NCBI RefSeq assembly: GCF_001618145.1
Contig: NZ_LQNF01000004.1
Coordinates: forward strand, 186,001 to 250,000
Source: Oceanobacillus damuensis
GTDB taxonomy: Bacteria; Bacillota; Bacilli; Bacillales; Amphibacillaceae
DNA: 64,000 bases
Reading direction: 5' to 3'
Shown here: positions 27,241-45,166 of the stretch, piece by piece
Position numbering within the stretch: the stretch's first letter is position 1
Layout of the letters: each line of letters opens with the position of its first letter
Made by a program: the position numbers and the translations under genes
Notes under the pieces: model-generated
What the model was told of the DNA's origin: nothing
What the model saw: only the letters and a program-made list of their open reading frames with translations
Database searches by the model: none

Positions 27241-27267
27241 TGCTCCAATATAAAGTGCAACTTAAAT

Positions 27268-27430: not shown

Positions 27431-27626
27431 CTTTGTGTTTTCGCTCGGAGGATTAACTGCCTGCAAACCCTATGTCAATTTTTTATTCTCCCACTTTCTT
27501 TAAGTATAATTTCCATTAAAAATTCAAATCATAATCCTGTCTGCGGAAGTTTTTGCTTCCCATTTTTATCCACTTAAGAGACTATATATCTCACATGTAT
27601 CACTACATCTAAGCGGGGGGATTTAC

Positions 27627-29123: not shown

Positions 29124-29134
29124 CCCCATTAATT

Positions 29135-29174
29135 AAAACGCACACTTTGGCTAAATTGCCTATGTGTGCGTTTT
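29135..29174. terminator. Terminator between BCCT gene and methyltransferase
   Basis: AAAACGCACAC (29135-29145) pairs with GTGTGCGTTTT (29164-29174) between convergent genes. Confidence 0.75.
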
Positions 29175-29184
29175 ACACTGTCAT

Positions 29185-29796
29185 CTAAAATACTAAACGG
29201 TAAATCAGGAAACGCTCGTCAGGGTTTTTCTCATACAATCCTTGTAATGGGACTTCCTTCTTTAATTCAAAGGAAGTATTGTTCTCAAGGAAATAAATAT
29301 AATCTTCATGGGGGTAATACAATATCAATTCCACTTCCCTTTCAGCTTTTTCTGCAGAGCGTAAAATGTTATGAATGACTTTTCTAAAAATGATAACCGA
29401 AAAAGGATTAAAGAAATAGAAACGATTATCATTTGGTTCTACCCTATACTCCTCTGCCAGACAGCAGAAGAATTCAATGGTGTTCTCTTTTTTGTTTGTA
29501 TATTTTAAATAACTTCGCTGGTTATCAATTGCCTTCTGATAGGCGTTTTCATCCATTTCTATCCCTTTGGCCGAAACACCGAAAAAGTAATGGATATAAA
29601 AGTTCAGCCTACCTTTACCACATCCGTAATCAACTACTTGATCATTTTCCCCTAATTTATAATGCTGGAACAGGATTTCCAATGCATCATACGGTGTAGG
29701 TTCATATGGATTGTATTGGACCGAATCCGGATAGGACACCTTCTTTTCTGCCCCTGTACGGATGTGCATTAATTTATCAAATTTATATTCGTTCAT
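29185..29796 (-). CDS. Class I SAM-dependent methyltransferase
   Basis: Motif I is VVDYGCGKGRLNF (about residues 55-67), followed by the acidic end of strand 2 (GIEMDENAY) and a catalytic-looking FFNPFS motif in the position of NPPY/NPPF, which in other families is typical of N-methylation. Length 203. The substrate is unknown. It is monocistronic, convergent with the BCCT gene. The 321 bases upstream (29797-30117) contain only a TTACCAT/ATGGTAA inverted repeat (29839-29863) and the YugN start region. Confidence 0.75.
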   Translation of the reverse strand: MNEYKFDKLMHIRTGAEKKVSYPDSVQYNPYEPTPYDALEILFQHYKLGENDQVVDYGCGKGRLNFYIHYFFGVSAKGIEMDENAYQKAIDNQRSYLKYTNKKENTIEFFCCLAEEYRVEPNDNRFYFFNPFSVIIFRKVIHNILRSAEKAEREVELILYYPHEDYIYFLENNTSFELKKEVPLQGLYEKNPDERFLIYRLVF

Positions 29797-30117
29797 CGTA
29801 TCGTCCTTTAAAATTTTTTCAGAATCGGAAAATCAATTACCATCACATTCTGTAATGGTAAGTCAATTTTAACATAATCGCGCGTTTACAAGAAGGAGAC
29901 CTTACTCATTCTCAGCTGACTACCCGCTGCAAACTGTCTATAAACCAGCCAAACAAGAGAAAATAACATATCATGGGAAAATGGGTGTGAGCCACCATTA
30001 AATGCCTCAGCCCTTTTTACTATCATCCTTTACCGCACCCTTGCATCTATTTTAAATGTATTTATATTCCATTTTTGGGAAGGATAATAACTAATCTAAT
30101 TTAGGAGTGTATAGAGG

Positions 30118-30540
30118 ATGATAGAACTACATACAGAGATTGAGGGAAAAAGAACAACCTTTGGCCAAATGCAATCCGGTCTGAAGTCCTTAGGTTATTG
30201 CTTATGCGGAAATTGGCAATATGACAGAGGTTTTTTTGATGGTATCCTGTCACGCGAAGGAGGCGAGACAATATATATCCGACTCCCCTTTCACGTCATT
30301 ACCGGTCAGCTGGATCATAGCGATGCTGTTATCGAGTTTCAAACACCTTTTGTTATCAAACATGTTGTTAATGTCGGTTTGGACAAAAGTGGATCATCGC
30401 TCCTTACAGCTACAGGATTTAGCCAATTTCAAAAGCCTTTGGATACGGATGGAAATATAAAACATAAAAATAAGTGGGAAGAAATTGGTGAGAGGTCCAT
30501 AGACCAGGTAATGCAATATATTTCGATGAATGTGTCTTGA
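30118..30540 (+). CDS. YugN-like protein of unknown function
   Basis: A 140-residue cytosolic protein without membrane segments. The pattern 'LGYCLCGNWQYDRGFFDG' followed by a beta-rich 'YIRLPFHVITGQLD' and 'FQTPFVIKHV' agrees with the YugN family of Bacillaceae, whose function is not known. AGGAGTGTATAGAGG precedes ATG 30118. It stands next to the DUF1992 gene but with a 110-base gap. Confidence 0.6.
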   Translation: MIELHTEIEGKRTTFGQMQSGLKSLGYCLCGNWQYDRGFFDGILSREGGETIYIRLPFHVITGQLDHSDAVIEFQTPFVIKHVVNVGLDKSGSSLLTATGFSQFQKPLDTDGNIKHKNKWEEIGERSIDQVMQYISMNVS

Positions 30541-30652
30541 CCAATTTCCATATTCTCTTGATTTCCCCCGGAGTTTTGCCCATACTTATTGATAAGAATT
30601 GTTACCTTAAGACGTAATTCTTTTTATATATATGGGCAAGGAGGATAGTGTC

Positions 30653-31003
30653 ATGTATATTTTCGTTGAAGAAAAGATTAAAGAGTCCATCGAAAATGGT
30701 GAATTCGATAATCTTCCCGGAAAAGGGAAACCGCTCGATTTAAAAGATGAATTTTCCGGTATGCCCCAGGACCTGAAACAAGCCTATCGAATATTAAAAA
30801 ATGCAGGATATATTACTGAAGAAGTTGAAAATAAAAGAGACTCAATCTCCCAGGATGATTTGCTGACAAGCGCAACGGATGGGAATGTAAGTAGAGATCA
30901 ACATAAAAGAAAGCAGTTTGATACGTTTATTGAAGAAAGGAAATTGCATACCAACTCCAGATTTGCAGCCTATGCAAAGAAGATTTATAGGAAGCTGTTT
31001 TAA
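30653..31003 (+). CDS. DUF1992 (DnaJ-related domain) protein
   Basis: Small 116-residue protein. The hallmark VEEKIKESIENGEFDNLPGKGKPL at its N-terminus, then DLKQAYRILKNAGYITEE, defines DUF1992, also found in animal DNAJC28; no J-domain is present. Function is not established. Start placed at ATG 30653 because AAGGAGGAT ends 6 bases upstream; the ATG at 30632 precedes that site. Ends at a strong bidirectional terminator shared with arsC. Confidence 0.78.
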   Translation: MYIFVEEKIKESIENGEFDNLPGKGKPLDLKDEFSGMPQDLKQAYRILKNAGYITEEVENKRDSISQDDLLTSATDGNVSRDQHKRKQFDTFIEERKLHTNSRFAAYAKKIYRKLF

Positions 31004-31018
31004 TTCAATTTATAAAGC

Positions 31019-31063
31019 AAATGAGCCGTACATCCATTCCTTCGCAGGGTGTACGGCTCATTT
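31019..31063. terminator. Bidirectional terminator between DUF1992 gene and arsC
   Basis: A 14-bp perfect stem (31019-31032 with 31050-31063, GAGCCGTACA core) between convergent genes. Confidence 0.88.
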
Positions 31064-31078
31064 CAGTAAGGTGATTTA

Positions 31079-31498
31079 TTATTTTCCCGTTTCTGCAAAT
31101 TGTTTTATCCGGGCGCCAATTTCATCACGGACACGCCTGAACACTTCCCACACTTCTTCTTCGGTGCCTTCTGCTTTTGCCGGATCATCAAATCCCCAAT
31201 GTTCGCGTTTTACGTGGGGAGGTGTCATAGGACATTTGTCTGCAGCATCTCCACAAAGCGTAACAGCCAATGTAGCATTGTTCAAATAGTCCATATCAAT
31301 CATTTCCGATTTCTGTTCTGAAATATCCACCCCTGCTTCATCCATCGCTTTTACAGCTTTGGGATTTAAGCCATGTGCTTCAATGCCTGCACTTCTGACT
31401 TCCCATTCTTCTCCGAGATATTTTTTGGCCCATCCCTCCGCCATTTGGCTTCTGCAGGAATTTCCAGTGCATAAAAAGTAAAGTGTTTTTTTAGACAT
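31079..31498 (-). CDS. arsC: Arsenate reductase, thioredoxin-coupled
   Basis: Reduces arsenate to arsenite for export by ArsB. Low-molecular-weight phosphatase fold with the P-loop C10-TGNSC15-R and the redox pair Cys82 and Cys89 (LCGDAADKC), the three-cysteine relay of the thioredoxin-dependent family of B. subtilis and S. aureus. Length 139 is exact for the family. Last gene of arsRBC, 16 bases after arsB. Confidence 0.95.
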
Positions 31499-31514
31499 GT
31501 ATTCATCTCTCCTT

Positions 31515-32813
31515 TTATAGAATTATTAATGTTAAATAGAGTCCTAATAGTGTAATAAACAGGATCGGAACAGTTAAGACAATCCCAATTTTAAAATAGG
31601 TTCCCCATGAAATTTTAAATCCTTTTTTGGATAAGACATGGAGCCATACTAATGTGGCTAGTGAACCAATTGGCGTAATCTTCGGTCCTAAGTCTGAACC
31701 AACTACATTCGCATAAATCAGCGCTTCGCGAATGACACCAGAAGTATCCGTTTCCGCAATGGCCAGGGCGTCAATCATAACTGTTGGCATATTATTCATG
31801 ATCGATGACAGAAACGCTGCAATGAATCCCATTGCCATTGTCGCTGCGAAAAGTCCTTGTTCTGCTGCTGCCTGAATAACGGTGGCAAGTGCACTAGTAA
31901 GCCCCGCATTGCCCAATCCATAAACAACGACATACATACCAAGGGAGAAAAATACAATATTCCATGGTGCTCCCTTAATAACTGCCCTTGTGTCCACAGC
32001 ATTGCTTTTTCTCGCCATCAGCAAGAAGAATATCGCTATAATGCCTGCAACAATGGAAACCGGCAAGTTAATAAACTCACTGACAAAATAGCCAATAAGT
32101 AGTATGCCGAGTACATACCAAGATAAACGAAACATTTTAGGGTCTCTTATTGCATCTACAGGTTGACTTAACTTGGAAACCTCATAGGACCTCGGAATGC
32201 TTTTTCTAAAGTAAATCAATAATACGGCAATTGTTGCTGTCAGCGCGAACAGATTTGGAATAATCATTCTCGATGCATATTCCACAAAACCAATGCCAAA
32301 GAAATCCGCAGAGACAATATTAACCAGGTTACTTACTACAAACGGTAATGATGTTGTATCAGCAATAAACCCACTCGCCATAATGAATGGGAAAATCATT
32401 TTTTCGGAGAAATTTAAATTCCGAACCATTGCAAGTACAATCGGTGTCAGTATAAGTGCAGCCCCATCATTCGCAAAGAAGGCGGCTACAATCGCACCCA
32501 AAATACTTATGTAGACAAACATCTTGATTCCATTACCTTGCGCAACTCTTGCCATATGCAAAGCTGCCCATTCAAACAATCCAATTTCATCTAATATTAA
32601 CGAAATAAGAATAATGGCAACAAAAGCAAGCGTTGCGTTCCATACGATATCGGTAACTTCGATAACATCACTGAAATCAACTACCCCTACCACCAGAGCG
32701 ACCAGAGCGCCACCGATGGCAGACCATCCAATTGACAATCCTTTAGGCTGCCATATAACTAAAATAAGTGTGACAAAGAAAATTAAAATTGCTAGCATAA
32801 GCGTTGTTGACAA
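31515..32813 (-). CDS. arsB: Arsenite efflux permease ArsB
   Basis: Membrane carrier that exports arsenite and antimonite. About 12 hydrophobic segments; ArsB/NhaD-type motifs include [18 protein letters not shown] and [13 protein letters not shown], and the C-terminal [22 protein letters not shown]. The start is placed at TTG 32813, 7 bases after GGGGGT; the earlier TTG 32828 lies immediately after the arsR stop and upstream of that ribosome site. Length about 432 fits ArsB. Confidence 0.92.
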
Positions 32814-32828
32814 AATAGTTACCCCCAA

Positions 32829-33173
32829 TTAGCAACAAGTGATTCGTGTACCTTGTTTTTCCAATTCTTTTAATTTATAACTCTGATCAGGTAATTGCTC
32901 GAGAATCTTGCCGATAAATGGATAGTACTCACTATTTTGGTTTACAGAGTAAAATATCCATTGGCCTCTCCGATCTTCCTTAACCAGTCCAACATCCCTC
33001 AATTTACGAAGGTGCTGACTTATGGATGGTTGACTTGCTTTAAAAATTTCCACGAATTCGCAAACACAACAGTCGTTGTCATCCAATATTTTCAGCATGG
33101 ACAATCTCGTTTTATCACCCAATAACTTTAAGATTACCGCTGCTTTATCCATTTCAATCGCAGTTTGCAGCAT
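32829..33173 (-). CDS. arsR: Arsenic-responsive repressor ArsR
   Basis: Winged-helix ArsR/SmtB repressor of 114 residues. The arsenite-binding cysteines appear in DCCVCE (Cys35, 36, 38) on the first HTH helix, followed by SQPSISQHLRKLRDVGLV. It ends with two further cysteines, as in many Bacillus ArsR proteins. AAAGGTGGTG precedes ATG 33173. First gene of the operon; a 9-bp inverted repeat operator lies 30 bases upstream. Confidence 0.92.
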   Translation of the reverse strand: MLQTAIEMDKAAVILKLLGDKTRLSMLKILDDNDCCVCEFVEIFKASQPSISQHLRKLRDVGLVKEDRRGQWIFYSVNQNSEYYPFIGKILEQLPDQSYKLKELEKQGTRITCC

Positions 33174-33202
33174 CCCTTAACACCACCTTTTATTCTTTCA
33201 TA

Positions 33203-33228
33203 ATTATATAACGATTTGCTTATATAAT
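33203..33228. promoter_or_regulatory. ArsR operator
   Basis: Perfect 9-bp inverted repeat ATTATATAA (33203-33211) and TTATATAAT (33220-33228) around an 8-base spacer, just upstream of arsR. Confidence 0.65.
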
Positions 33229-33272
33229 CAACCAACTAAGATTTCTTTTACAAATCTTTAATAAATCAACTA

Positions 33273-34118
33273 CTAAAATAAATCCATCTGCCTTGGAGCC
33301 AAACCTTCATATTCAATACCTAGTATGTTTTGGAGCTCCTTCGCATTAACTGCTGCCTCTTTGCCGGAATTATTGTTAAATAAAACAATAATATCCTTTG
33401 TCGATTTGGCAAGCTCGGTGATGGTGTTTTTTAAATCTGTCAGTTCCTGCTGATTATATCTATATAAGTAACGGACTTCACGCCAATTAACATTTCCTGA
33501 CTTATTCCAACCATGAATATTCCTTCCATGCATACGAATTAACGTCACATCAGGATTGGTCACAATCGGCACTAACGGAATCGATCCCTTTCCGGCCTGT
33601 GGTTCATCTGCAATGGAATGGATCCATCCATCTTCTTTCATAAAAGAAAGTGTTCCATCGCGAAAACGTGCATCAAACCAAGACTGATGCCTGAATTCAA
33701 GGGCGACTGGAATATTCCCCATCATTTTCTTACAGTATCTCAAATAAGTTACATTTTCCTTCCGGCAATCAAACCAAGGTGGGAATTGGAACAGAACCAT
33801 CGCCAGCTTCTTTGCATCCAGGTACGGTTTTAAAGAGTCCCTGAACGCCTTGAACATTTCTTTTTTGGATTCAAAAGGGGTATTTCCACGCTGATGTCCC
33901 GTCATAGCTTGATAAGCTTTTACGATAAACCGGAAATTTTCCGGTGTTTGCTTCACCCACTTTTCAGCATTGCGAACAGGCTGGATGGCATAAAAGGAGG
34001 CATCGACCTCCACAACCGGGAAATGACTGCTGTATTCGGTTAATTTATCTTTTGGCTTTATATAATCTGGATACAGAGAATCATGGTCCCCCCATCCTGT
34101 TAAACCTATTTGAATCAT
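33273..34118 (-). CDS. DUF72 family protein (YunF-like)
   Basis: TIM-barrel-like protein of 281 residues of unknown activity. The DUF72 pattern is clear: N-terminal IGLTGWGDHDSLYP, then YSSHFPVVEVDASFYAIQP, FRFIVKAYQAMTGH, VALEFRHQSWF, and C-terminal DIIVLFNNNSGKEAAVNA. Start placed at ATG 34118 with TGGAGG 6-7 bases upstream instead of the 16-codon longer frame. Upstream of arsR on the same strand is its stop, but 100 bases and the ars operator separate them. Confidence 0.82.
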   Translation of the reverse strand: MIQIGLTGWGDHDSLYPDYIKPKDKLTEYSSHFPVVEVDASFYAIQPVRNAEKWVKQTPENFRFIVKAYQAMTGHQRGNTPFESKKEMFKAFRDSLKPYLDAKKLAMVLFQFPPWFDCRKENVTYLRYCKKMMGNIPVALEFRHQSWFDARFRDGTLSFMKEDGWIHSIADEPQAGKGSIPLVPIVTNPDVTLIRMHGRNIHGWNKSGNVNWREVRYLYRYNQQELTDLKNTITELAKSTKDIIVLFNNNSGKEAAVNAKELQNILGIEYEGLAPRQMDLF

Positions 34119-34408
34119 ATTATTTCCTCCAGAAAATAATTCGTGCAGAATTGCGATCTGTATCAAGGGTAGTTCACAAGTACATTAATACGTGCGTTCT
34201 CCTATTTTACAACTCTAACAGAGCCCCAACCCGAACAAGTCTTTGTAGAAGGATACCATCTATCAATTTCTACGAGTTGCTTTCCATTATATCGTTTTTG
34301 TTCGATTCCTTAAAATGATAAATCTCTTTATTACGCGCCCCGTTACCGATTATACTTCTTTCTTTATGGGTAGATAACAATATCTGATAAATATAAGGAG
34401 CTGATAAA

Positions 34409-35134
34409 ATGAAAGATATGAAGCAAATCCATATGTACATCGCATTTGTCCTCATGATTGCAGTAAATGCCATGGCGAATATGTTTACCCTCAAGGGATA
34501 CACAACAGGTGAAATTTCCAATATGTATACGGTCTATTTCACCCCGGCAAGCTATACATTCAGTATATGGACGCTGATTTATATTGCTCTTTTCTTATGG
34601 CTGCTCAGTTTCAGTCTCAAAATGCAGAAGTTGGGCAATTCGCAGTATTGGGGATTTCTGCTGACTTGTCTTTTTAACGTTCTATGGATTATTTCCTGGC
34701 ATTTTCTTCTCGATGGAGTTGCCCTGATTATAATACTCATGCATTTCCTTACAATTCTATATCTGTATCACGCACAGCGCAGTCAAAACAAATCCATCAA
34801 ATTCCTGGCTCCGATTTCATTATATGTGGGCTGGATTACAGTGGCTTCCTTAATAAATATACTTTATTGGTTGGTAGCAAGTATTGAAATCAACACGGAT
34901 GTACAGATGATATTAACTTATCTGGCTGTCGCAATTGTTCTCATTCTCGGATTTGCAGTAATGTTTCTATTGCGGGATTGGGTTATTATCCTTGTATTCA
35001 TCTGGGCCATAATCGGTATATTTGTAATGAACTTCCCTGATCAATGGCTGCTTGCCATTGTCACAATCAGTATAGCGATATTTTTGGCAGTTCTATCGGT
35101 ACTTTACTGGATTCGGACAAGACATACCTCATAA
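34409..35134 (+). CDS. TspO/MBR-related membrane protein
   Basis: Very hydrophobic 241-residue protein with seven or so membrane segments. It carries pieces of the tryptophan-rich TspO pattern: 'TPASYTFSIWTLIYIALFLW', 'LFNVLWIISWHFLL' and 'YVGWITVASLINILYW'. TspO proteins bind porphyrins and are about 160 residues with five helices; this longer form has two or more additional helices. The ligand is unknown. AAGGAGC lies 8 bases before ATG 34409. Monocistronic, followed by an R1 repeat. Confidence 0.7.
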   Translation: MKDMKQIHMYIAFVLMIAVNAMANMFTLKGYTTGEISNMYTVYFTPASYTFSIWTLIYIALFLWLLSFSLKMQKLGNSQYWGFLLTCLFNVLWIISWHFLLDGVALIIILMHFLTILYLYHAQRSQNKSIKFLAPISLYVGWITVASLINILYWLVASIEINTDVQMILTYLAVAIVLILGFAVMFLLRDWVIILVFIWAIIGIFVMNFPDQWLLAIVTISIAIFLAVLSVLYWIRTRHTS

Positions 35135-35159
35135 ATAAAACAGACGGATGAGTGACCGT

Positions 35160-35335
35160 GAACAAAAGCGCAAGCGCCTTGATCACCCCCGACAAGCTTA
35201 AGTAGAAACTACCAGTGGCGTTCTTTGCCACAGGTAGTTTCTACTTAAGACCTCAAGGGGGGTAGGCGCTGGAGCTGGCCGTGGCCGTTTATGTGTAAGA
35301 ATTAAATGCTGCCAAAATCTTATACTTTCTTACCC
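35160..35335. repeat. Dispersed palindromic repeat, family R1, copy 3 (most complete)
   Basis: Nested pairing: AGCGCC with GGCGCT, ACCCCC with GGGGGT, then a perfect 17-bp stem (35197-35213 with 35233-35249, CTTAAGTAGAAACTACC) and inner GTGGC/GCCAC. It shares flank GAACAAAAGCGCAAGCGCCTT with copy 1 and the tail GGAGCTGG...TAAGAATTAA.TGCTGCC with the copy near 51090. Confidence 0.78.
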
Positions 35336-35336
35336 G

Positions 35337-35374
35337 TTTAAAAAGGGACAAGCACCATGTATGGCACTCATCCC
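35337..35374 (-). terminator. Terminator of the flavin monooxygenase operon
   Basis: On the minus strand a 14-bp stem including G-T pairs (35361-35374 with 35345-35358) with a 2-base loop is followed by TTTTT, 27 bases beyond the reductase stop. Confidence 0.7.
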
Positions 35375-35400
35375 CCCTTATACCTTAATATCATAGCGTA

Positions 35401-35967
35401 TCAAAATCCATAATCAGCTTCTTTAGCTTTACGAATCTCCGTAAATGTTTTCGTCAAAACGACGGTATCTTCCACCAAACGGTCAATACGGAATAATACA
35501 TCATCATTAACGATTTCTTTCCGATGAAAATCCTTTTCCTCGATAAATACATATGTCTGTACAAGTTGGGCCTTCATGTAGGAAAGAATCGGTTTTAATT
35601 GCTGATCGACCATTAAATAATGCTTTGGTGACCCTGCAGTGACAAACATGCCGACAATTTTATCCAAAAATGCCTTCTCGGGCAGCAGGTCAAAGATGTT
35701 TTTCAATGTAGCTGGTATCGATGCCTGAAATACAGGGGTTCCTATAATTATTGCATCGGCTTCCATAATGGTTTTCGTAACATATCCGGTGTCGCCTTCA
35801 TACTCCAGGTAGTTACGGCCATCACTAAACTGCACATCATATTCGGCTAAATCGATTAATGTCACCTCAATATCCGGATACTTATCTTTGATAATCTTAA
35901 CTGTATAGTCCATCGCTGTTCTCGTTTTCGAACCGACCTTCGAACCAGATAATCCCACGATTTTCAT
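35401..35967 (-). CDS. NAD(P)H-dependent FMN reductase
   Basis: Flavodoxin-like enzyme of 188 residues supplying reduced FMN. The phosphate-binding loop is GLSGSKVGSKTRTAMDY at the N-terminus and the isoalloxazine loop is GTPVFQASIPATLKNIFDLLP near residue 78; family close to MsuE/SsuE type reductases. It starts 12 bases after the LLM monooxygenase gene, so the two make a two-component monooxygenase. The substrate is unknown; sulfonates or other small organics are handled by such pairs. Confidence 0.85.
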   Translation of the reverse strand: MKIVGLSGSKVGSKTRTAMDYTVKIIKDKYPDIEVTLIDLAEYDVQFSDGRNYLEYEGDTGYVTKTIMEADAIIIGTPVFQASIPATLKNIFDLLPEKAFLDKIVGMFVTAGSPKHYLMVDQQLKPILSYMKAQLVQTYVFIEEKDFHRKEIVNDDVLFRIDRLVEDTVVLTKTFTEIRKAKEADYGF

Positions 35968-35979
35968 ATTTCCATCTCC

Positions 35980-37038
35980 CTAGTTCTTTGCTGTATATTT
36001 TTTGATTGCCGGTAAAATTTCTGTTCCGATCAACTCAATGTTTTTCTTTAATTTATCAAATGGAACACCACCGAAATCCATTTGTGCGATATAGCGCTGA
36101 TGTCCAAATTGTTCATGCTGGTAAAGAATTTTCTCAATGATTTGCTGAGTACTGCCGACATTCATAACATCCCTTGTATCTGCACCTTGAGCAAATTGCT
36201 GCTTCGGATAGCCTCTTCCGTTAATCAGCTGCAAACCTTGATTAACATGTGGGTATATTTCTTTTTGCGCCTGTTGTGTCGTTTCCGCAGCATAGAAAAA
36301 TCCGGCAGTTGATATCGGAAGCTCGGATGGGTCAAATCCATTTTGCTTTGCGGCCTCACGATATGCATCAATGGAATACTTAAAGCTTGTAGCAGGCCCG
36401 CCCAAAGTCGCGATAAACATTGGAACCCCTGCATAACCCGCTTTAATGGCACTGGCAGGAGGACCGCCAACTGCACGCCAGATTGGAATGGTTCCGTTTT
36501 TTGGACGAGGAATAACTTCTGCATTCTTTAACGGTGCACGGAACTGTCCGCTCCAGTTGACAACTTCCTCTTTGGCAATCTTCAGCAACAGTTCGAACTT
36601 TTCTTCAAACAGTTCTTCATAGTCACGCACATTATAGCCTAACAGATCGAAAAGCCCGATTCGTGAAGCACGTCCAGCAATGAGTTCCGCCCGCCCTTTT
36701 GAAATCAGGTCAATGGTGGCAAAATCCTCAAAAACTCGTACAGGATCGGATGTACTAATAATTGTTGAAGAACTGGCTATTTTTATTTTTTCTGTTGCTT
36801 GAGCAATAGCGGCCAGGACAACAGAATGCGCCTGGGTAGTGAAATATTCCTGATGACTTTCTCCAACACTGAAGAAATCAATCCCGGCCTGTTCCGCCAG
36901 CTGGGCCAGTTCAATGATTTCATGGATGCGCTGCTCTGCGGAAATCCTCTCTCCTGTATGGGGATCCGGTATGTGGTCTCCAAGTGTATAAAGACCAAAT
37001 TCCATTCCTTGACTTGGATCAATACGATATTTTTCCAT
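35980..37038 (-). CDS. LLM-class flavin-dependent monooxygenase (luciferase-like)
   Basis: Bacterial-luciferase-fold enzyme of 352 residues that uses reduced FMN and oxygen. Typical blocks: AEQAGIDFFSVGESHQEYF, IKIASSSTIISTSDPVRVFEDFATIDLISKGRAELIAGRAS and IWRAVGGPPASAIKAG. It is of the 'alkanal monooxygenase-like' group annotated only in general terms. First gene of the operon with the FMN reductase and divergent from hxlR-type regulator at 37212; this arrangement in Bacilli often answers electrophiles such as quinones or aldehydes (inference). Confidence 0.85.
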   Translation of the reverse strand: MEKYRIDPSQGMEFGLYTLGDHIPDPHTGERISAEQRIHEIIELAQLAEQAGIDFFSVGESHQEYFTTQAHSVVLAAIAQATEKIKIASSSTIISTSDPVRVFEDFATIDLISKGRAELIAGRASRIGLFDLLGYNVRDYEELFEEKFELLLKIAKEEVVNWSGQFRAPLKNAEVIPRPKNGTIPIWRAVGGPPASAIKAGYAGVPMFIATLGGPATSFKYSIDAYREAAKQNGFDPSELPISTAGFFYAAETTQQAQKEIYPHVNQGLQLINGRGYPKQQFAQGADTRDVMNVGSTQQIIEKILYQHEQFGHQRYIAQMDFGGVPFDKLKKNIELIGTEILPAIKKYTAKN

Positions 37039-37155
37039 ATATTTGTCAGCCTCACTTATATTATATTTGATTATTGATTTTTTGTTGCGTTACAACCATT
37101 GCTTCTTTCCATAACATCTTCTTGGTGCTAGTATAGAATATAATGAGATATTATG

Positions 37156-37198
37156 TAAGTACGCACTTAAAGGCAACCTAGTATGCAAAAAGATACTA
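37156..37198. promoter_or_regulatory. Two inverted repeats between LLM gene and HxlR regulator
   Basis: TAAGTACGCACTTA (37156-37169) is a perfect palindrome of 5-bp arms; TAGTAT (37179-37184) and ATACTA (37193-37198) form a second one with 8-base spacer. Both sit in the 173-base divergent region and resemble HxlR/YodB-type operators. Confidence 0.5.
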
Positions 37199-37211
37199 AG
37201 GAGAATGTTAA

Positions 37212-37559
37212 ATGGAAAAGATACCTGAATTTTGTCGTGTAGAGGATGCATTGGGTATATTGGTCGGTAAATGGAAACCGATTATTTTACTGCATTTATT
37301 GCAAGAAGGTACGAAACGTTTTAGTGAGCTTAAACGCAGCATGCCCGGAATCACACAAAAGGTGCTGACAAAACAATTACGGGAACTGGAAGACGAAGAT
37401 ATTGTTGCACGTGTTGTATATCCCCAGGTTCCACCCAAAGTGGAGTATTCGATTACCGAATATGGCAGAAGCTTGGAACCTATTCTGGAAGCAATGCACG
37501 AATGGGGCACGAACCATACTTTGCATAAAATGAAGAAGAGGAATGAAAAGAGCCTTTAA
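37212..37559 (+). CDS. HxlR-family transcriptional regulator
   Basis: Compact winged-helix regulator of 115 residues: [53 protein letters not shown] and [16 protein letters not shown] are the HxlR family blocks. A cysteine at residue 9 lies before the first helix, the position of the redox or electrophile-sensing cysteine in YodB, HypR and related proteins, so thiol-based sensing is possible. AAGGAGA precedes ATG 37212. Divergent from the flavin monooxygenase operon, which is its likely target. Confidence 0.88.
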
Positions 37560-37561
37560 CT

Positions 37562-37599
37562 AAAAATCCCTTTAGGCAAAAAAATCTAAAGGGATTTTT
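37562..37599. terminator. Bidirectional terminator between HxlR gene and nucleoside hydrolase
   Basis: AAAAATCCCTTTAG (37562-37575) pairs with CTAAAGGGATTTTT (37586-37599), between convergent genes. Confidence 0.9.
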
Positions 37600-37640
37600 A
37601 GCAGTACTGCTTACATGTTCTGTATTTTAAAAACTAACGT

Positions 37641-38576
37641 TTATTGTCCCGCTAAATCAGTGATATAGTTAAAAAAACGATCCCTGTCCGCTTCATAAAC
37701 CAGCTGAACAGCTCGTCCATCATCGGACTTCTCCGTTTTCCCTTGACTTGGTCCATCTTCATGAACGATGCTTCTCACTTCCTTTTTCTTTACAAGGTCT
37801 TCCCTCCCTATCGTCGCTGTTGTCAATACGTCCCAAAGGAAATATGTCGAATTTGTCTGGAAGTGGACAAGCGGTGGAACCATGGCATAGCATTGACCAA
37901 GGAAATCAATCCCCAAGTCTCTTCGTTCAGAAGCCCATCTGTTACGGACATCCAATGTAAGAGGTACCATGTTTGTACTTTCGAGTGCCACTAAATCAAT
38001 TCGAATATTGGAGTCCCACACGACTTTAACTGCTTCCGGATCCCAGAAAGCGTTCCACTCAGCGGTCCCATCATGCTCGGGTTCTTCCACATTGCCCTTT
38101 TCCAAAAAGGTACCACCCATCCATGCCAGTTTTTCAATCTTATCTTCTATATCCGGAGCTTCCTTCAGCGCCCGCGCCAAATCTGTTAACGGTCCGACGA
38201 ATAATAAGGTCACTTTCTCATCACTCTTACGCAAAGATTCGACCAAATGTTGATGTGCGGGTAAATCTGCCTCTTTCGTTTTGACCGGTAAAAATTCATT
38301 TAATATCGGCAAGGCATCGACTAAAAAGGCATGCATTCGCCAGTCCTTTGGAAAAGGATTTTTCCCACGTGAATTAGAGGGTGCTACTTCAATTTCCTTC
38401 CCCTTACCAAATCGATCGATAATTTTTCTGCTGGCAGACACCGCCGGTTCCAAATAACAATCTGCAGGAATTACTCCAACACCGATCAGCTCCACATCTT
38501 CCATTTGCAATAACAGGAACAGCGAAACTAAATCATCCACACCACCATCATGGTTAAGGTATACTTTTGTTGCCAT
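37641..38576 (-). CDS. Inosine-uridine preferring nucleoside hydrolase-family protein
   Basis: Calcium-dependent family that splits N-glycosidic bonds of nucleosides. The N-terminal Ca/ribose motif is NHDGGVDD where typical members read DxDPGxDD, so the first aspartate is Asn and the proline is Gly; later family blocks are present (LLFVGPLTDLARAL, MGGTF, AEWNAFWDPEAVKVV). Length 311 is usual. ATG 38576 has AAAGGAAG 8 bases upstream. The altered motif leaves catalytic competence or substrate class uncertain. Monocistronic. Confidence 0.82.
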   Translation of the reverse strand: MATKVYLNHDGGVDDLVSLFLLLQMEDVELIGVGVIPADCYLEPAVSASRKIIDRFGKGKEIEVAPSNSRGKNPFPKDWRMHAFLVDALPILNEFLPVKTKEADLPAHQHLVESLRKSDEKVTLLFVGPLTDLARALKEAPDIEDKIEKLAWMGGTFLEKGNVEEPEHDGTAEWNAFWDPEAVKVVWDSNIRIDLVALESTNMVPLTLDVRNRWASERRDLGIDFLGQCYAMVPPLVHFQTNSTYFLWDVLTTATIGREDLVKKKEVRSIVHEDGPSQGKTEKSDDGRAVQLVYEADRDRFFNYITDLAGQ

Positions 38577-38873
38577 TGACTGCACTTCCTTTCATGCTGT
38601 AGATTCACACTCTTGTTAGTATACTTCATTTTCATAGCTCATTCATAATTTCTTATCTTTAATTTTCATGACCCGCAATGCTCAGCCATAATGCATGGTA
38701 TAAAGAAAACCTCTTGCATCAACTTTTTTCTTTATCAGTATTGCGATTCCCCGCAAAAAGTCCTGGTTATTTTGTACGTAAATTATTCATACAAAATTAT
38801 TTCTAAATTAATCCTTCCTATACATTCTTTCTCTATACTTTACTTTGCAGAAAGATGGAGAAGGAGGAGAAAA

Positions 38874-40709
38874 ATGTTGGAAAAAGACAGATTAGGAAAC
38901 TATGTAGCTATCACTGTAAGTATTGTACTATTATGTATGTTGTTGCCTCTCCAAACTAGTCAGGCATCATCAGTTGAAAATGTTGCATCAAGTGAAACTG
39001 GAGGAGCTTTAGCACATTGGAAGTTTTCTAAGGAATATGTGAAATCAGGTTCCATCGAAACGGGGGATCTGGTGATAGAAGATGCTAGTGGCAACGGGAA
39101 TAATTTAATTCTGGAAACGGTAGGAGATGCTTCCTCTGAGGAAACTGAAGGTATGGTTAGATGGTCTGAGGATGATTATGCAAACGAGGATTCTACCCAA
39201 AGTATAGAATTTGGAAACTATAAACAAGCGCCAGTTGGGCGATATTTTAGAACAACAGATGATGCTCCCATTAACTCAGAAAAGTTTAAAGATGGATTTA
39301 CGATAGAAGTTATCATGAAAATGCCTCAAGACTTTGCGCCTGAAAAACATTCTTGGATGGGAATTCTAACTCGGCAAGGACAAGCTGCAGATTTAAATAA
39401 AACAGAAGGCGAAAAAGAAATTCTTTCCACACTTTCTGTTTCCAATTTGAAGGAATTGCAATGGACAAGCCATCCGACTAACTTAAATTATAATCAGACA
39501 AACTGGTCTTTCTCATTGGATAGTAAAGAAGATTGGTATCATGTTGCCATAGTAAATGATGGTAATCATACAAAGTTATATGTGAATGGTGTTACTGATT
39601 TTCGTAATACAGAAGAAGTAATGAATGGTATTGACGCGATTCAAGAAAAGGGTTGGAATATAGGTGCTTCTGAATGGGAAAATGAGATAGATGCCTTATT
39701 TGCCGGAAAAATTCAAGAAATTCGAATGAGCGATCAAGCACTTAATCAGGAAGATTGGTTAGTTGATGGACCTCAAGAAAGTCATGTGGAATATGGAACC
39801 AATGAGGATATCCCTTTATTAACCGATAAAGACAACTACAACTTTGTTTTTGTACCAGATCCACAAAAGACGGTTCGTTACCAGGATGAAATCTTTTATG
39901 AGCAAATGAAATGGATTGCAACGAATAAAAATAGTCACCACATCGCTATGACAGCTTTTGTTGGCGATATGGTTGACAGGAGCAATAGCTTAGATGAATG
40001 GACTGCTTCTGATAAAGGTGTGGACTTACTTGATAGGCATCGGGTTCCTTATCTTGTTACTGCTGGCAACCACGATTACGGAATCGATGACCCTTACTTG
40101 GATTATTACAGTGAGCAACGCTTTGCTGATAAAGAATATTTTAAAGAAAGTTCTCCATCTGGATATAGTTCTTACGGTATCATAAAGGCTGGAAACTATA
40201 GTTATCTATTTTTGATGGTCGATATGAAACATGTTGAAGAAGATAGTGATTGGGCAAAACAGGTATTAAACAACCATCCTAATTTGCCTACCATACTAGT
40301 ATCACATGAAATACTTGCCGTTTCAGGGGACGGTAATTCAGCAGCGGATACAGCCCGTGGGAATCTTATTTGGGATGAGTTGGTTGATGACCATAACCAA
40401 GTATTTATGACAGTAAGCGGCCACCATCACGGTGCACTGCAGCGCATTAAGCAAAATGCAACAGGAAATGACGTCATTCAAATACTTGTAGACTATCAAT
40501 CCAGCTTTGCTGGAGGAAATGGATGGATGCGTTTTGCAGAATTTGACGAGCAAGAGAATCAAATTAATTTTAAAACCTATTCTCCTTGGGTTGAGAAGTT
40601 ACCAAAACCACAACGCACCTATTTCGATGTGAAATATTTAAATTCGGAAAATGATCAGTTTGAAATTGATTTTAATTTTGAAGAACGTTTCAGTTTTTAT
40701 GGTGAATAA
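38874..40709 (+). CDS. Secreted LamG-like/calcineurin-type phosphoesterase
   Basis: Start at ATG 38874 with AAGGAGGA 6 bases upstream; the open frame extends 61 codons further but without signal peptide logic. Residues 1-33 form a signal peptide with a hydrophobic stretch ending TSQASS, so the protein is exported. Residues about 45-235 look like a concanavalin/LamG jelly roll (ALAHWKFS..., WYHVAIVNDGNHTKLYVNG). Residues about 260-550 are a metallophosphatase: GDMVDR, AGNHDYG, LVSHEIL and SGHHHGALQ; the first motif is VPDPQ, lacking the usual His. Likely a cell-surface or secreted phosphodiesterase; substrate unknown. Confidence 0.78.
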   Translation: MLEKDRLGNYVAITVSIVLLCMLLPLQTSQASSVENVASSETGGALAHWKFSKEYVKSGSIETGDLVIEDASGNGNNLILETVGDASSEETEGMVRWSEDDYANEDSTQSIEFGNYKQAPVGRYFRTTDDAPINSEKFKDGFTIEVIMKMPQDFAPEKHSWMGILTRQGQAADLNKTEGEKEILSTLSVSNLKELQWTSHPTNLNYNQTNWSFSLDSKEDWYHVAIVNDGNHTKLYVNGVTDFRNTEEVMNGIDAIQEKGWNIGASEWENEIDALFAGKIQEIRMSDQALNQEDWLVDGPQESHVEYGTNEDIPLLTDKDNYNFVFVPDPQKTVRYQDEIFYEQMKWIATNKNSHHIAMTAFVGDMVDRSNSLDEWTASDKGVDLLDRHRVPYLVTAGNHDYGIDDPYLDYYSEQRFADKEYFKESSPSGYSSYGIIKAGNYSYLFLMVDMKHVEEDSDWAKQVLNNHPNLPTILVSHEILAVSGDGNSAADTARGNLIWDELVDDHNQVFMTVSGHHHGALQRIKQNATGNDVIQILVDYQSSFAGGNGWMRFAEFDEQENQINFKTYSPWVEKLPKPQRTYFDVKYLNSENDQFEIDFNFEERFSFYGE

Positions 40710-40733
40710 TAATCGGAATTAAACGCATGATTA

Positions 40734-40766
40734 AAACGCCCTGGATTTTTTCTGGGGCGTTTTAAA
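40734..40766 (+). terminator. Terminator of exported phosphoesterase gene
   Basis: AAAACGCCC (40734-40742) pairs with GGGCGTTTT ending at 40764, with a 12-base loop. Confidence 0.8.
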
Positions 40767-40820
40767 GTTATAAAACTACTTAGGAGGGGGTATTATAAAG
40801 CGAAATTCAAAGAAATCCCA

Positions 40821-41834
40821 TTAAATACACTCTATAACAGTATCCCCGAACTCCCTGATATCCGATAAATAGTCATACCCTGGAGTGGAACCAAAACTAT
40901 TCAACATACGAACTGCTACTATATCATGCTTGGGAATCACCAATAAGGCAACATTCGTATATCCTAAAATCTGAAAAGAGCCTTTAGGTACACGTTCACC
41001 AATTTCCGTTTTCTTTGCAGGCAAGTCCTTCACAAACCATAAAAAACCGTTTTGAGGTAGATCCTTATTCAATAAGTTCGGTGCCTGAAGGGATGCAGCC
41101 ATCTTGAGGATGTCTTTTGAAATCGCTTGTTTTCCACTTACAAATCCCTGTTTCAAATGGATATATCCCCAATATGCAAGCTCTCTAGTAGATACATACA
41201 TATTCTTCTTATTCCCATCCGTACCTTTACTTGTTGACCAAAATCTATTATCTGGCTCTCTAATAACTTGTACTAGGTTTTCATTTGGTTCATCATGCCA
41301 TCCAGTTTCCTTAAACTCTAAAGGTTTAAATACTTGTTCTTTAAGGATTTGAGCAATAGTTTTTCCAGTAGCCAGTTTGACAACCTGTGACAATAGCTCA
41401 CTGCCTATATCACGATATGCCCAGCTTTGTCCTGGTGCAAATTCTCGAATTAGTTTTCCCTCTGTTGTGTTTAAACCGTGTGTATGTGTTAGCAAGTTTC
41501 TGATCGTTATCTGTTTAAAAATATCAGTGCTAACTGCAGACAGATATTTAGTGACTTCATCGTCGATAGACTCTATGTAGCCATAATGTACTGCATATGC
41601 AACCGCAAATCCAATATAGCTTTTTCGAACAGAAGCTACATGAAACTGTGAGTCTTTCTGAATAGGTTTTGCATCAGGAGCTTTTGAATGATTCCCCCAA
41701 TAAACCTCCGTGACGATTTTATTGTTGTGAATAACCATCACGCTTGCACCTGAGCAATCTACCGTTTGAGAAGTTTCTTTTACCTGTGATACTAAAGAGC
41801 TAAATTGGCTGTTTAACTTTCTCTCTATAACCAT
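40821..41834 (-). CDS. Serine hydrolase, beta-lactamase class C/penicillin-binding-like family
   Basis: Cytoplasmic-looking 337-residue protein without signal peptide. The SxxK nucleophile motif is SVRKS (about residues 68-72), the second motif is YRD in SWAYRDIGSELL, in place of Y-x-N, and NLLTHTHGL is the usual third block of esterase EstB/AmpC-like proteins. Such proteins are esterases, peptidases or of unknown role; activity as beta-lactamase is not implied. Monocistronic. Confidence 0.78.
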   Translation of the reverse strand: MVIERKLNSQFSSLVSQVKETSQTVDCSGASVMVIHNNKIVTEVYWGNHSKAPDAKPIQKDSQFHVASVRKSYIGFAVAYAVHYGYIESIDDEVTKYLSAVSTDIFKQITIRNLLTHTHGLNTTEGKLIREFAPGQSWAYRDIGSELLSQVVKLATGKTIAQILKEQVFKPLEFKETGWHDEPNENLVQVIREPDNRFWSTSKGTDGNKKNMYVSTRELAYWGYIHLKQGFVSGKQAISKDILKMAASLQAPNLLNKDLPQNGFLWFVKDLPAKKTEIGERVPKGSFQILGYTNVALLVIPKHDIVAVRMLNSFGSTPGYDYLSDIREFGDTVIECI

Positions 41835-42136
41835 ATTTTCTCCTTTCGAAAGACATTTTTAGAATAGGCAGGAAAGTAATGGGGTCTTAATTATAGCAGT
41901 TCAGAGTTATAATAGAATTTGGTTATTGTCTTTTAAGTATACAACAGATAGTTTAATTGTATTTATTCAAAAGATTTTTTATGGATACAAAATAAAGGAT
42001 AAACTACATGATACTTTTTAAAAACAAAATGAGTTACTTTAAATAGAACACCAACTAATACTTTATCTCCTCATGCAGATTTGTTTTTCTATTTGATTTA
42101 AAACACTCTCTAAACTGTTGTTTTACGGCAAATAAA

Positions 42137-42186
42137 AGAATCCATTTCGAAAAAAGATCAATCAAAATGGATTCTACAATTTTTTA
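42137..42186 (+). terminator. Orphan terminator-like hairpin
   Basis: AGAATCCATTT (42137-42147) pairs perfectly with AAATGGATTCT (42165-42175), followed by a T-run at 42180-42185. No gene ends nearby on either strand in 41835-42300, which otherwise shows nothing I can support. Confidence 0.55.
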
Positions 42187-42298
42187 CAGATAAAATTTTC
42201 ATAAAAGAGTTTGACCATTTTAGAATGCGTTTTGTGGACATGTGCAACTTTTAGTTAACTTGTCCTTTACTTGCTGAGACTCGTCATGGTAGCATATA

Positions 42299-42327
42299 GT
42301 TTGAATTCTGATTATTTATGGTATAAT
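42299..42327 (+). promoter_or_regulatory. Promoter of antitoxin RNA
   Basis: A consensus -10 TATAAT (42322-42327) with a -35-like GTTTGA (42299-42304, 17-base spacer) or TTGAAT (42301-42306, 15-base spacer). Transcription should start near 42334. Confidence 0.6.
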
Positions 42328-42333
42328 GAAAGT

Positions 42334-42484
42334 AATAACATACAATAATAAAAAGACCGCCAGCGTTACAGCGCTGACGATCTGATGCATTAGCATGATT
42401 CCCTGCAAGGGGGATTGGCTGTATAGGTCTAAAAAATAAGCACCCACAGGAGCCGTCAACTCAATGGGGGGGCTTATTTTTTTT
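42334..42484 (+). ncRNA. Antitoxin RNA of type I toxin-antitoxin module
   Basis: Starting at the promoter above and ending at the terminator AAAATAAGC...GCTTATTTTTTTT (from about 42431 to 42484), this 150-base RNA contains no convincing open frame. It is highly structured: a closing AGACC...GGTCT helix, CAGCG/CGCTG, ATGC/GCAT and TCCC/GGGA hairpins. It converges on and overlaps the 3' end of the toxin gene on the minus strand through the shared terminator, the arrangement of txpA/RatA and bsrG/SR4. By this geometry it would pair with the 3' part of the toxin message and promote decay or block translation (inference). Confidence 0.72.
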
Positions 42485-42557
42485 GGTTAAATGACAGCAT
42501 AGCTACAATCAACATTCCGAAAGTTAAAGCTAACATCAATGCTTCGAATACTGCCAT
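42474..42557 (-). CDS. Small hydrophobic holin-like type I toxin (27 aa)
   Basis: The 27-residue peptide begins MAVFEALMLAL, has one membrane-spanning stretch rich in Leu, Met and Val, and ends with a short polar tail NQKK, matching the putative holin-like toxin (Hol-Tox/TxpA-related) family in which 'FEALMLM' is the signature. Such peptides damage the membrane when overproduced. An unusually strong ribosome site AAAGGAGGTG lies 5-6 bases before ATG 42557 but is buried in a hairpin. The stop codon lies inside the bidirectional terminator stem. An extended -10 promoter at 42628-42633 would start the message. Too short for ordinary ORF lists. Confidence 0.78.
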   Translation of the reverse strand: MAVFEALMLALTFGMLIVAMLSFNQKK

Positions 42558-42593
42558 TGGCACCACCTCCTTTCTATCGGAGATGAATGCCAA
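42557..42593 (-). promoter_or_regulatory. Hairpin sequestering the toxin ribosome binding site
   Basis: In the toxin mRNA, TTGGCA (42593-42588) pairs with TGCCAA (42562-42557) and CATCTCC (42585-42579) with GGAGGTG (42570-42564), including one G-T pair, leaving an 8-base loop. The ribosome site and the bases just before the ATG are thus double-stranded. Confidence 0.65.
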
Positions 42594-42627
42594 CCCGCCC
42601 ATGAGTTTATCAAACTATTGTTCTTCC

Positions 42628-42636
42628 ATTATAACA
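42628..42636 (-). promoter_or_regulatory. Extended -10 promoter of toxin gene
   Basis: On the minus strand TGTTATAAT is a perfect extended -10; no good -35 is needed or seen. Transcription would start near 42621, giving a leader of about 64 bases. Confidence 0.55.
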
Positions 42637-42756
42637 TTTCATCAAAATTAACGTCTCCAACAAACAATTCATGTTACATCAGGTTTCCGATTGATAGGAT
42701 AGATCTCATTAAGTTTTAAAATATTGAACTAGTATTGGAAATCAGCACATTATCCC

Positions 42757-42800
42757 AGACCTTGAATTTCAAATTAATTCAGGGTCTAGGATTTTCTCTT
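42757..42800 (+). terminator. Orphan hairpin right of toxin locus
   Basis: AGACCTTGAATT (42757-42768) pairs with AATTCAGGGTCT (42776-42787) with one T-G pair, followed by AGGATTTTCTCTT. No adjacent gene ends here; the remainder of 42660-42910 shows nothing else. Confidence 0.4.
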
Positions 42801-42910
42801 CTTCATGACACATTAAACAATGCTAGTTGACGTGGGTCTTCTTAGGACGTGAGTGGTCGGTTCGACAAACGCTGTGGTAAAGCCAATTTTTTGTACTTTC
42901 TTATCTATTT

Positions 42911-42955
42911 AAAAAACAACCCTATACGAACGTACTATCGTAAAGGGTTGTTTTT
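42911..42955 (-). terminator. Terminator of glmS
   Basis: AAAAAACAACCC...TACGA pairs with TCGTA...GGGTTGTTTTT; on the minus strand the stem is followed by a T-run, 50 bases beyond the glmS stop. Confidence 0.82.
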
Positions 42956-43003
42956 ATCAAACTTTATTTCAAAGCTACATTAATTCAATGACACAACAAA
43001 ATA

Positions 43004-44806
43004 TTATTCAACTGTCACTGACTTAGCCAGGTTGCGTGGTTTATCCACATCACATCCACGGTGCAATGCTGCATAATAGGAAAGCAATTGCATTGGAATA
43101 ACACTTACAAGCGGTGTCAGTAATTCATGGACATGTGGTAATACAAAGGCGTCGTCATCCTGCTCCAGCCCTTTCAGACTGATAACCATTGCATTTGCGC
43201 CACGGGCAACAACTTCCTGTACGTTACCACGAATAGAGTAGTTTACGTTTTCCTGTGTTGCGAGAGCAATAACAGGAGTCCCTTCTTCAATTAAAGCAAT
43301 AGTACCATGCTTCAATTCTCCTCCGGCAAACCCTTCTGCCTGAATATAGGAAATCTCTTTCAGCTTCAGTGCCGCTTCAAGGGAAACATTATAATCGCTG
43401 CTTCTGCCAATGAAGAAAGCATTGCGTGTCGTTGCAAAATAATCTCTTGCAAGCTGTTCAAATTCCTCTTTCTGATCTGTTAATACTTCCATCGCATTTG
43501 CAACAATTGCAAGCTCTTGCATTGGATCAAAGTCCAGCTCAAGACCCTTTGCGTTCGCTGTATCGACTGCCAGAATTGCCAAGACGGCGATTTGAGCAGT
43601 ATATGCTTTTGTTGATGCTACCGCGATTTCCGGTCCTGCATATAAGTGCAGTGTATAATCTGCTTCACGAGAAAGGGTCGATCCTGGCACATTTGTAATT
43701 GTAAGTGCCGGATATCCCATTTTTTTAATTTTCACCAATACGGATCTGCTGTCAGCAGTTTCCCCACTTTGTGAAATGAACACAAATAATGGTTTTTCTG
43801 ACAGTATTGGCATATTATATGAAAATTCACTTGCAACATGGACTTCTACTGGGATTTTTGCTAATTTTTCCAGGAACTCTTTACCGACAAGACCTGCATG
43901 GTAGCTTGTTCCTGCTGCAATGATATAAATACGGTCTGCTGCTTTCATTGCCTTACGAATATCCGCAGCAAGCTTCAATTCGTTGTTCTCATTTTGATAT
44001 TCATTGATGATTTTACGCATGACAATCGGCTGTTCATCAATTTCTTTAAGCATAAAGTGTGGGTACGTACCTTTTTCGGTATCACTCGCATCGATTTCAG
44101 CAGTGTACGGCTTACGCTCTACAGCTGTTCCTTCCAGTGTTTGTACTTCAACATAATTACGATTCACAAGTACAATTTCCTTATCGAAAATTTCCACATA
44201 CTGATCCGTTTCCTTCAACGTTGCCATCGCATCACTTGCAACTAGGTTGAATCCATCGCCTAGGCCTACTAATAGCGGGCTTTTATTTTTGGAAACATAC
44301 AACGTATCAGGATCTTCCGCATCAATCAGGCCAATTGCATAAGATCCCTTTAATAGACCCATCACTTCACGAAATGCTTCCGTTGTATCCTGATGTTTTT
44401 GATAAAGCTTTTCAATCAGCTGTACGATTACTTCTGTATCTGTATCACTAACGAAATTTACATCACTTAGATATTCTTTTTTCAGGTCGTTGTAATTTTC
44501 AATAACACCATTATGAACAATCGTAAATCTTCCAGACACGCTTTGATGAGGATGTGCATTAATGATGCTTGGCACACCATGTGTCGCCCAGCGGGTGTGG
44601 CCGATTCCCATTGTTGCATGTACAGATTTATCAACACTTTCTCGCAGAGCTGCAATACGACCCTTTACTTTTGTCAGATTGACTCCTTCATCATTCAGGA
44701 TAGCAATTCCTGCAGAATCATAACCTCTATATTCCAGTTTTTCCAGTCCATTCAATAAAATCTCTTTTGTATCGTTTTGTCCGATATAACCTACTATTCC
44801 GCACAT
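43004..44806 (-). CDS. glmS: Glutamine-fructose-6-phosphate aminotransferase (isomerizing)
   Basis: Makes glucosamine-6-phosphate, the entry to cell-wall amino sugars. N-terminal class II glutaminase with the nucleophile Cys2 (MCGIVGYIG) and GHTRWATHG; two SIS isomerase domains follow, with [19 protein letters not shown] and [19 protein letters not shown], and the conserved C-terminus [13 protein letters not shown]. Length 600 is exact. Its message carries the self-cleaving glmS ribozyme. It shares the pathway with glmM 2.6 kb away; the S9 peptidase gene separates them. Confidence 0.97.
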
Positions 44807-44881: not shown

Positions 44882-44902
44882 TCGTGTGTTTTTATTTGAA
44901 CA

Positions 44903-45058
44903 TCTTTCTATACCCTTTTGTCCAATAAGTCGCCTTATTGTTTTTGGGGTAAAGCTAAACGACTGAGATATCCAGCCGGGAGGCATCCGCCGAAACCCTC
45001 GATAACCTCCACCTCGTCAACTATTTCTCGCCACCGATCGGAAAAATAGTCCTGGCGC
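44903..45058 (-). ncRNA. glmS ribozyme (glucosamine-6-phosphate responsive)
   Basis: The minus strand shows the hallmark AGCGCC at the cleavage site (scission just before G at 45058), GACGAGGTGGAGGTTATCGAG, TTTCGGCGGATGCCTCCCGG, then the P3-P4 region with AAGGCGACTTATTGGACAAA. It cuts its own mRNA when glucosamine-6-phosphate is high, lowering GlmS. All core segments are present, so it should be active. Confidence 0.97.
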
Positions 45059-45166
45059 TTTTATTTCATTAATAACCTCGATGCCCCTTTCCACCCTAGA
45101 ATCAACCTCAGCTCTATTTATATACCTCATTCAAAAAAAGTTAAACATACCCAAAGAGCTCACTAT

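Follow-up and report, generated by a model that had tools for sequence, protein, structure and literature searches.

What is encoded in the 1169 bp that separate a beta-lactamase-family gene (40821-41834) from glmS (43004-44806), both on the minus strand, in the 64-kb stretch of DNA analysed here (the window), which lies on contig C3 of a 4.1-Mb Oceanobacillus genome? An earlier note had placed a type I toxin-antitoxin locus in this interval and described it as gene-poor; the interval between the two large ORFs is as described, and the identity of the locus is supported by an Rfam match, a Pfam match, the conserved position of a promoter and covariation. Judged from its sequence and modelled folds, the cassette is very probably a chromosomal type I toxin-antitoxin locus of the BsrG/TxpA type, in which a toxin mRNA of approximately 270 nt and an antisense RNA of approximately 150 nt would form a duplex of approximately 135 nt, and a hairpin would act in cis on the Shine-Dalgarno (SD) sequence. 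It is one further member of a family well known from Bacillus subtilis; the locus is well supported as such and its toxin activity is putative. The features are:

42296-42636, no strand: cassette, 86% identical to a copy at an unrelated site in G001, a second species of the genus (blastn, promoter to promoter)
42301-42327, plus strand: antitoxin promoter, TTGAAT, 15-bp spacer and extended -10 TGGTATAAT at 42319-42327 (sequence; conserved -10 position)
42334-42484, plus strand: antisense antitoxin RNA, about 150 nt, SR4/SR5-like, predicted ends (fold, conserved -10, T-run)
42431-42484, plus strand: antitoxin terminator, whose 3' arm and U-tract complement the toxin stop and Lys-Lys codons (sequence, T-run count, covariation)
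42350-42622, minus strand: toxin mRNA, about 270 nt, predicted ends (Rfam match and terminator-like site)
42354-42383, minus strand: the toxin mRNA's own intrinsic terminator (terminator scan; covariation)
42474-42557, minus strand: ORF of the 27-aa putative toxin peptide, Hol_Tox (Pfam)
42557-42593, minus strand: predicted SD hairpin abutting the start codon, 14 bp in the local fold and 12 bp in the full-length fold (helix 3)
42566-42573, minus strand: SD sequence AAAGGAGG
42628-42636, minus strand: toxin promoter, extended -10 TGTTATAAT, no good -35 (sequence)

Genomic setting

Family scans of the genes around the cassette, which lies downstream of glmS, gave metabolic or transport functions or no assignment. 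The ten proteins beside further copies on contigs C2, C20 and C10 of the same genome are metabolic, transport-related or without a family, plus one transposase-type helix-turn-helix gene (C10), and no phage families were found among the genes scanned near the window copy and near the copies on these three contigs. On C10 (110000-129999) two copies with 37-aa toxins lie approximately 13 kb apart, each near a gene with a 5'-nucleotidase C-terminal domain, and a transposase-type helix-turn-helix gene is found approximately 3 kb from one of them.

Among 56 loci with named records, the closest GlmS to that of the window, at 93% identity, comes from Oceanobacillus massiliensis. The heavy-metal ATPase gene of the window has a DNA match (approximately 70% identity) in O. 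massiliensis, located approximately 2 kb downstream of glmS; in the window itself 18 kb separate this gene from glmS (24650-43000), and genes for an arsenite pump and a BCCT transporter lie in between, as does the beta-lactamase-family gene. If the O. massiliensis match is the same gene, the stretch of the window between the heavy-metal ATPase gene and glmS is extra or rearranged. Two other RNA elements in the window also exceed their Rfam cut-offs, a glmS ribozyme upstream of glmS (44898-45070) and a SAM riboswitch (7776-7884).

The putative toxin gene

The minus-strand ORF (42557-42474) has 27 codons, encodes MAVFEALMLALTFGMLIVAMLSFNQKK and carries its SD 8 nt upstream; its Hol_Tox match (PF16935) reaches 30.4 bits against a cut-off of 23.3, and ORF, SD and Pfam match together confirm the 27-residue peptide reported previously on this strand, for which "holin-like" is only the name of the Pfam family. 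The RNA around it was matched by the Rfam BsrG family (RF01412, gathering score 55 bits) from 42622 to 42358 on the minus strand, over the entire model (1-259 of 259), with 84.5 bits and an E value of 3.3e-18 in the 64-kb window. It also has a better fold than any of 200 shuffles (z -5.0), and toxin -10 boxes are present in relatives too. Two other coding arrangements were considered and set aside: a separate 47-aa peptide downstream on the toxin mRNA (42459-42316), the ORF of which crosses the terminator and gave only a DUF3187 match below the cut-off (E 0.22), and an in-frame upstream start at 42602 (42 aa), which is disfavoured by the lack of an SD on inspection by eye.

Relatives of the peptide were found on plasmids (29 records) and phages (19 records, 15 of them Brevibacillus phages). 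The suggestion that the locus is small enough to be missed by usual gene calling is plausible; among 20 of the 29 matching plasmid records that were listed, three carry the annotation "putative holin-like toxin", 16 "none" and one record is without annotation, in a gene table which is itself incomplete.

The peptide resembles ComI, the competence inhibitor of plasmid pBS32, in its shortness and in residues 1-23. An alternative reading is that it is a regulatory membrane peptide under antisense control and no toxin at all. ComI is the sole NCBIfam match of the peptide (NF052249, 22.1 bits, E 9.2e-5). However, this score is far below the ComI cut-off of 55 bits and the Hol_Tox and BsrG matches exceed theirs, so that a purely regulatory role appears unlikely. 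Both readings may nevertheless be compatible, as a B. subtilis plasmid peptide which is 70% identical to the window toxin also sits in an RF01412 match (69.9 bits).

The predicted antisense RNA and the promoters

By sequence, a convergent antisense gene is predicted, with a promoter of its own beyond the 3' end of the toxin RNA. The perfect TATAAT that had been claimed for each RNA is present, and in both cases it belongs to an extended -10 box, TGnTATAAT, at 42319-42327 (plus) and 42636-42628 (minus); the entire 64-kb window has just eight such sites, both strands counted, and these are two of them. A good -35 is wanting at both promoters, neither of which was listed by a -35/-10 consensus scan, and by the same scan the region is not enriched in promoters (5 found vs 7.3±2.7 in shuffles). 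None of 200 shuffles reached the folding energy of the plus-strand RNA (z -3.6), in keeping with the earlier description of this RNA as structured.

The conservation of the antisense promoter was analysed using 37 loci (8 from the own genome and 29 others), which are best-match cut-outs and represent a subset of all matches. Thirty-three of these are full-length matches with whole flanks, the window copy included; L008 and L099 (partial matches) and L089 and L097 (contig ends) were left aside. An antisense -10 box with at least 5/6 matches was found at +27 to +38 from the match end in 29 of the 33 loci and was missing from this bin in four, counts which do not represent independent events as the loci are related. 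Shuffles gave far fewer, 7.1±2.4 with a maximum of 15 (500 dinucleotide shuffles), and at most 17 when the best bin was freely chosen (200 shuffles). With the filter used, an SD-preceded peptide was missing in 4/33 loci. The bsrG gene of SPbeta, which served as a positive control, scored 210.4 bits in RF01412 and displayed the 5' to 3' fold-back, with a hairpin upstream that takes up the SD (P 0.80). The first perfect antisense -10 box in this control does not occur until +43, which falls beyond the +27 to +38 bin, and its ORF escaped the SD pattern used.

Perfect complementarity of the window antitoxin extends over 125 nt for its own mRNA and over at most 10 nt for the six other full-length copies of the genome, a result largely to be expected of an antisense RNA. 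From this difference in complementarity, cross-control among the genomic copies would be unlikely.

Predicted terminators and overlap of the two RNAs

The plus-strand hairpin, which together with its eight T spans 42431-42484, was absent from the list of the terminator scan because its loop is too long for the scan. The toxin stop codon (42476-42474) lies in the 3' arm of this hairpin, and thus inside a terminator stem as the earlier note had it; that note also had both messages ending at this one bidirectional terminator and overlapping only there, and here the results point elsewhere. In such an arrangement control would be exerted by termination or collision with no long duplex, and the window hairpin does have a T-run on both strands. 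However, when a T-run was defined as at least six T in the next nine bases, the antitoxin side of the shared hairpin carried one in 22/22 relatives and the toxin side in just 4/22 (the window copy being among the 22 and among the 4). The distal site of the toxin RNA (42383-42354, minus), recognized as terminator-like by the scan, covaries with double-sided changes in 7/8 pairs and is followed by a T-run in 14/22 relatives, as counted from the end of the Rfam model, 2-3 bases before the T-run. Furthermore, the Rfam match extends approximately 70 nt past the shared hairpin, to 42358.

On the T-run counts and the covariation of the distal terminator, a shared bidirectional terminator was rejected as the architecture of the family, and an overlap restricted to the hairpin is, all evidence considered, a very improbable account of the window copy. 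The two RNAs probably do not share a single terminator; as the window copy has T-runs on both sides, partial termination of the toxin RNA at the shared hairpin is possible there. The 3' end of the toxin RNA is most likely located at about 42350, and the predicted ends give a 3'-3' overlap of approximately 135 nt, within the 100-140 bp stated for B. subtilis systems in PMC6562991.

The T-run on the antitoxin side overlaps Lys codons, so that its conservation could partly reflect the peptide and is no proof by itself. The two final AAA codons of the Lys-Lys-stop sequence (42474-42484) are complementary to the U-tract of the antitoxin. When the four sense codons before the stop were counted in the 29 toxins that passed the filter in the 33 loci (and are not independent of each other), Lys was encoded 52 times by AAA and 8 times by AAG, compared to 234:123 in 12 ORFs of the window (binomial p 3e-4). 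This preference fits selection on the U-tract as well as on the basic tail of the peptide. In G001 the A run is shorter and the C-terminal tail of the toxin differs. The joint constraint on the last codons of the toxin and the terminator of the antitoxin presents a small, testable case of two-strand coding.

Fold of the toxin mRNA

A consensus structure was derived from an alignment of 22 of the 37 loci, hand-picked for their closeness to the short-toxin type of the window (the short-toxin loci L089 and L098-L102 were left out). Of its 34 pairs, 16 show double-sided changes, and 94.5% of the cells are paired, figures obtained on the same alignment from which the structure was predicted, which favours it over the slid controls (40-61% paired). 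None of 500 shuffles reached any of five measures; the sequences are related and include the window copy, so these controls flatter the structure. Helices 1 and 2 join the 5' leader with the 3' UTR, helix 3 is the SD hairpin, helix 4 is formed between the codons that follow the start and others close to the ORF end, and helices 5 and 6 are the antitoxin-terminator hairpin and the toxin terminator, respectively. Double-sided changes are mostly found in helices 5 and 6, and changes in helices 1 and 3 are mostly one-sided.

By prediction the SD is sequestered in the toxin mRNA itself. The GGAGG of the window is paired in the upstream hairpin with P 1.00 (0.80 one base upstream), and in 20/22 relatives upstream pairing of the SD has a P of at least 0.65; the exceptions are L096, with weak sequestration (0.40), and L080, with none upstream (0.05). 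As the modelled SD helix reaches 12-14 bp with no antitoxin present, translation control of the SR4 kind may be dispensable; alternatively, translation may require prior refolding of the mRNA.

Distribution, change of site and decay

At E values up to 1, the own genome contains 12 RF01412 matches, two of which exceed the cut-off, and 10 Hol_Tox matches, seven of which do so. RF01412 matches were found in 28/28 genomes of the genus (E up to 0.01; cut-off passed in 21) and in 107/150 genomes of the order (E up to 0.001; cut-off passed in 63), the own genome being included in both. A literature search for type I toxin-antitoxin systems in Oceanobacillus found nothing.

The nearest relative of the window cassette is the copy of G001 (L122, 4400-4737), which is 86% identical with the similarity confined to 42296-42636 and unrelated flanks; the next best in the genus, in G027, is 79% identical over about half of the cassette. 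The G001 cassette lies between a TPP riboswitch with an apparent thiY-type operon and an apparent proline-dehydrogenase gene, the operon and the gene being read from ORFs. DNA readings upstream of the thiY-like gene in two further genomes revealed only the part with the cassette 3' end and antitoxin promoter in G004 (L108/L133), and a toxin part with an early in-frame stop in G027 (L106/L135). In G018, which has the thiY-like gene, blastn found no cassette within 1.5 kb upstream. The thiY-like protein itself gave no match in the window genome (E up to 1e-60).

The window cassette gave no blastn match at the 56 named glmS loci (E up to 1e-3), and the 37 cut-out loci, one of which is the copy of the window, gave two weak matches, one of L097 in L027, where it lies approximately 2 kb downstream of glmS, and one of L100 in L038, at a site far upstream. 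A conserved position downstream of glmS was not found by this search, from which diverged copies could escape and in which several contigs end early. Taken together, the unrelated flanks in G001, the lack of a match to the thiY-like protein in the window genome and the 56 glmS loci without the cassette indicate, from sequence comparison, that the cassette has changed site; it decays where it is not kept. No target-site duplications were seen by eye at the cassette edges.

That the window cassette is itself a decaying, non-functional copy is hardly likely: loss does happen, as seen from the clearly decayed copies at the thiY-like site in two species of the genus, but the window copy retains an open frame, the fold, the SD and the -10 box and terminator of each RNA, ranks second by score among the 12 RF01412 matches of its genome, and differs from G001 in codons 2-25 by substitutions skewed to synonymous ones (5 at 16 synonymous vs 3 at 56 nonsynonymous sites; Fisher p 0.011).

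A bolder proposal is that the cassette of this genus is a self-contained unit, promoter to promoter, which needs no prophage to move from one ordinary chromosomal site to another and which decays where it sits, and the mRNA of which carries a translation lock independent of the antitoxin; as a whole this is speculative and would more probably fail than hold. Should the lock of 12-14-bp SD hairpin and fold-back be true, the toxin mRNA would need refolding or processing before synthesis of the toxin. Two features are worth following, the location of the cassette at different sites in two species and the strong SD hairpin predicted to act in cis. As a cassette of this kind is found here among metabolic and transport genes, at different sites in two species and with family matches in 28/28 genomes of the genus, the retention of chromosomal type I toxin-antitoxin loci can be studied on a comparative set.

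Proposed mechanism and comparison with known systems

The sequences, the predicted folds and their conservation were established in this study; transcription of both RNAs, duplex formation, decay by RNase III and toxicity are carried over from bsrG/SR4, bsrE/SR5 and txpA/RatA. For the type I reading preferred here, the minus strand would give rise to an mRNA of approximately 270 nt for a 27-residue membrane peptide, and the plus strand to an antisense RNA of approximately 150 nt which starts just past the 3' end of the mRNA and stops at the toxin stop codon. By analogy, the antisense RNA would pair with the 3' half of the toxin mRNA over approximately 135 nt, and RNase III would cut the duplex and so remove the toxin mRNA. 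The 12-14-bp hairpin is predicted to bury the SD in cis, keeping basal translation low independently of the antitoxin, and toxin would be made solely when the mRNA outruns the antitoxin, with harm to the cell envelope as the presumed outcome.

The verified type I systems of B. subtilis are mostly located in prophages or phage remnants, according to PMC7430163. Of these, bsrG/SR4 of prophage SPbeta shares with the window its Rfam family, the fold-back of the mRNA from 5' to 3', an SD in an upstream hairpin and convergent RNAs which overlap at their 3' ends (PMC7430163); however, BsrG has 38 aa as compared to the 27 aa of the window toxin, and the bsrG SD is described as held by 4 bp, lengthened to 8 bp by SR4 (PMC7430163), whereas the hairpin predicted for the window has 12-14 bp with no antitoxin. 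The 3' ends also overlap in txpA/RatA of the skin element, by approximately 120 nt (PMC7430163). TxpA and BsrG are placed in one family in PMC6562991; the same source gives 59 aa for TxpA, in contrast to the 27 aa of the window toxin and the 35-37 aa of longer copies in its genome.

Similar sizes are given for bsrE/SR5 and bsrH/as-bsrH of the B. subtilis P6 and skin elements, with toxins of approximately 30 aa, toxin RNAs of 255-285 nt and antitoxins of 163-200 nt (PMC6562991). For bsrE/SR5 the figures set out there, a toxin RNA of 255-260 nt, an antitoxin of 163 nt and a peptide of 30 aa, agree with the RNA and peptide sizes of the window cassette. This likeness is one of sizes, and both B. 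subtilis pairs are described on prophage elements (PMC6562991), whereas the window copy resides among metabolic and transport genes.
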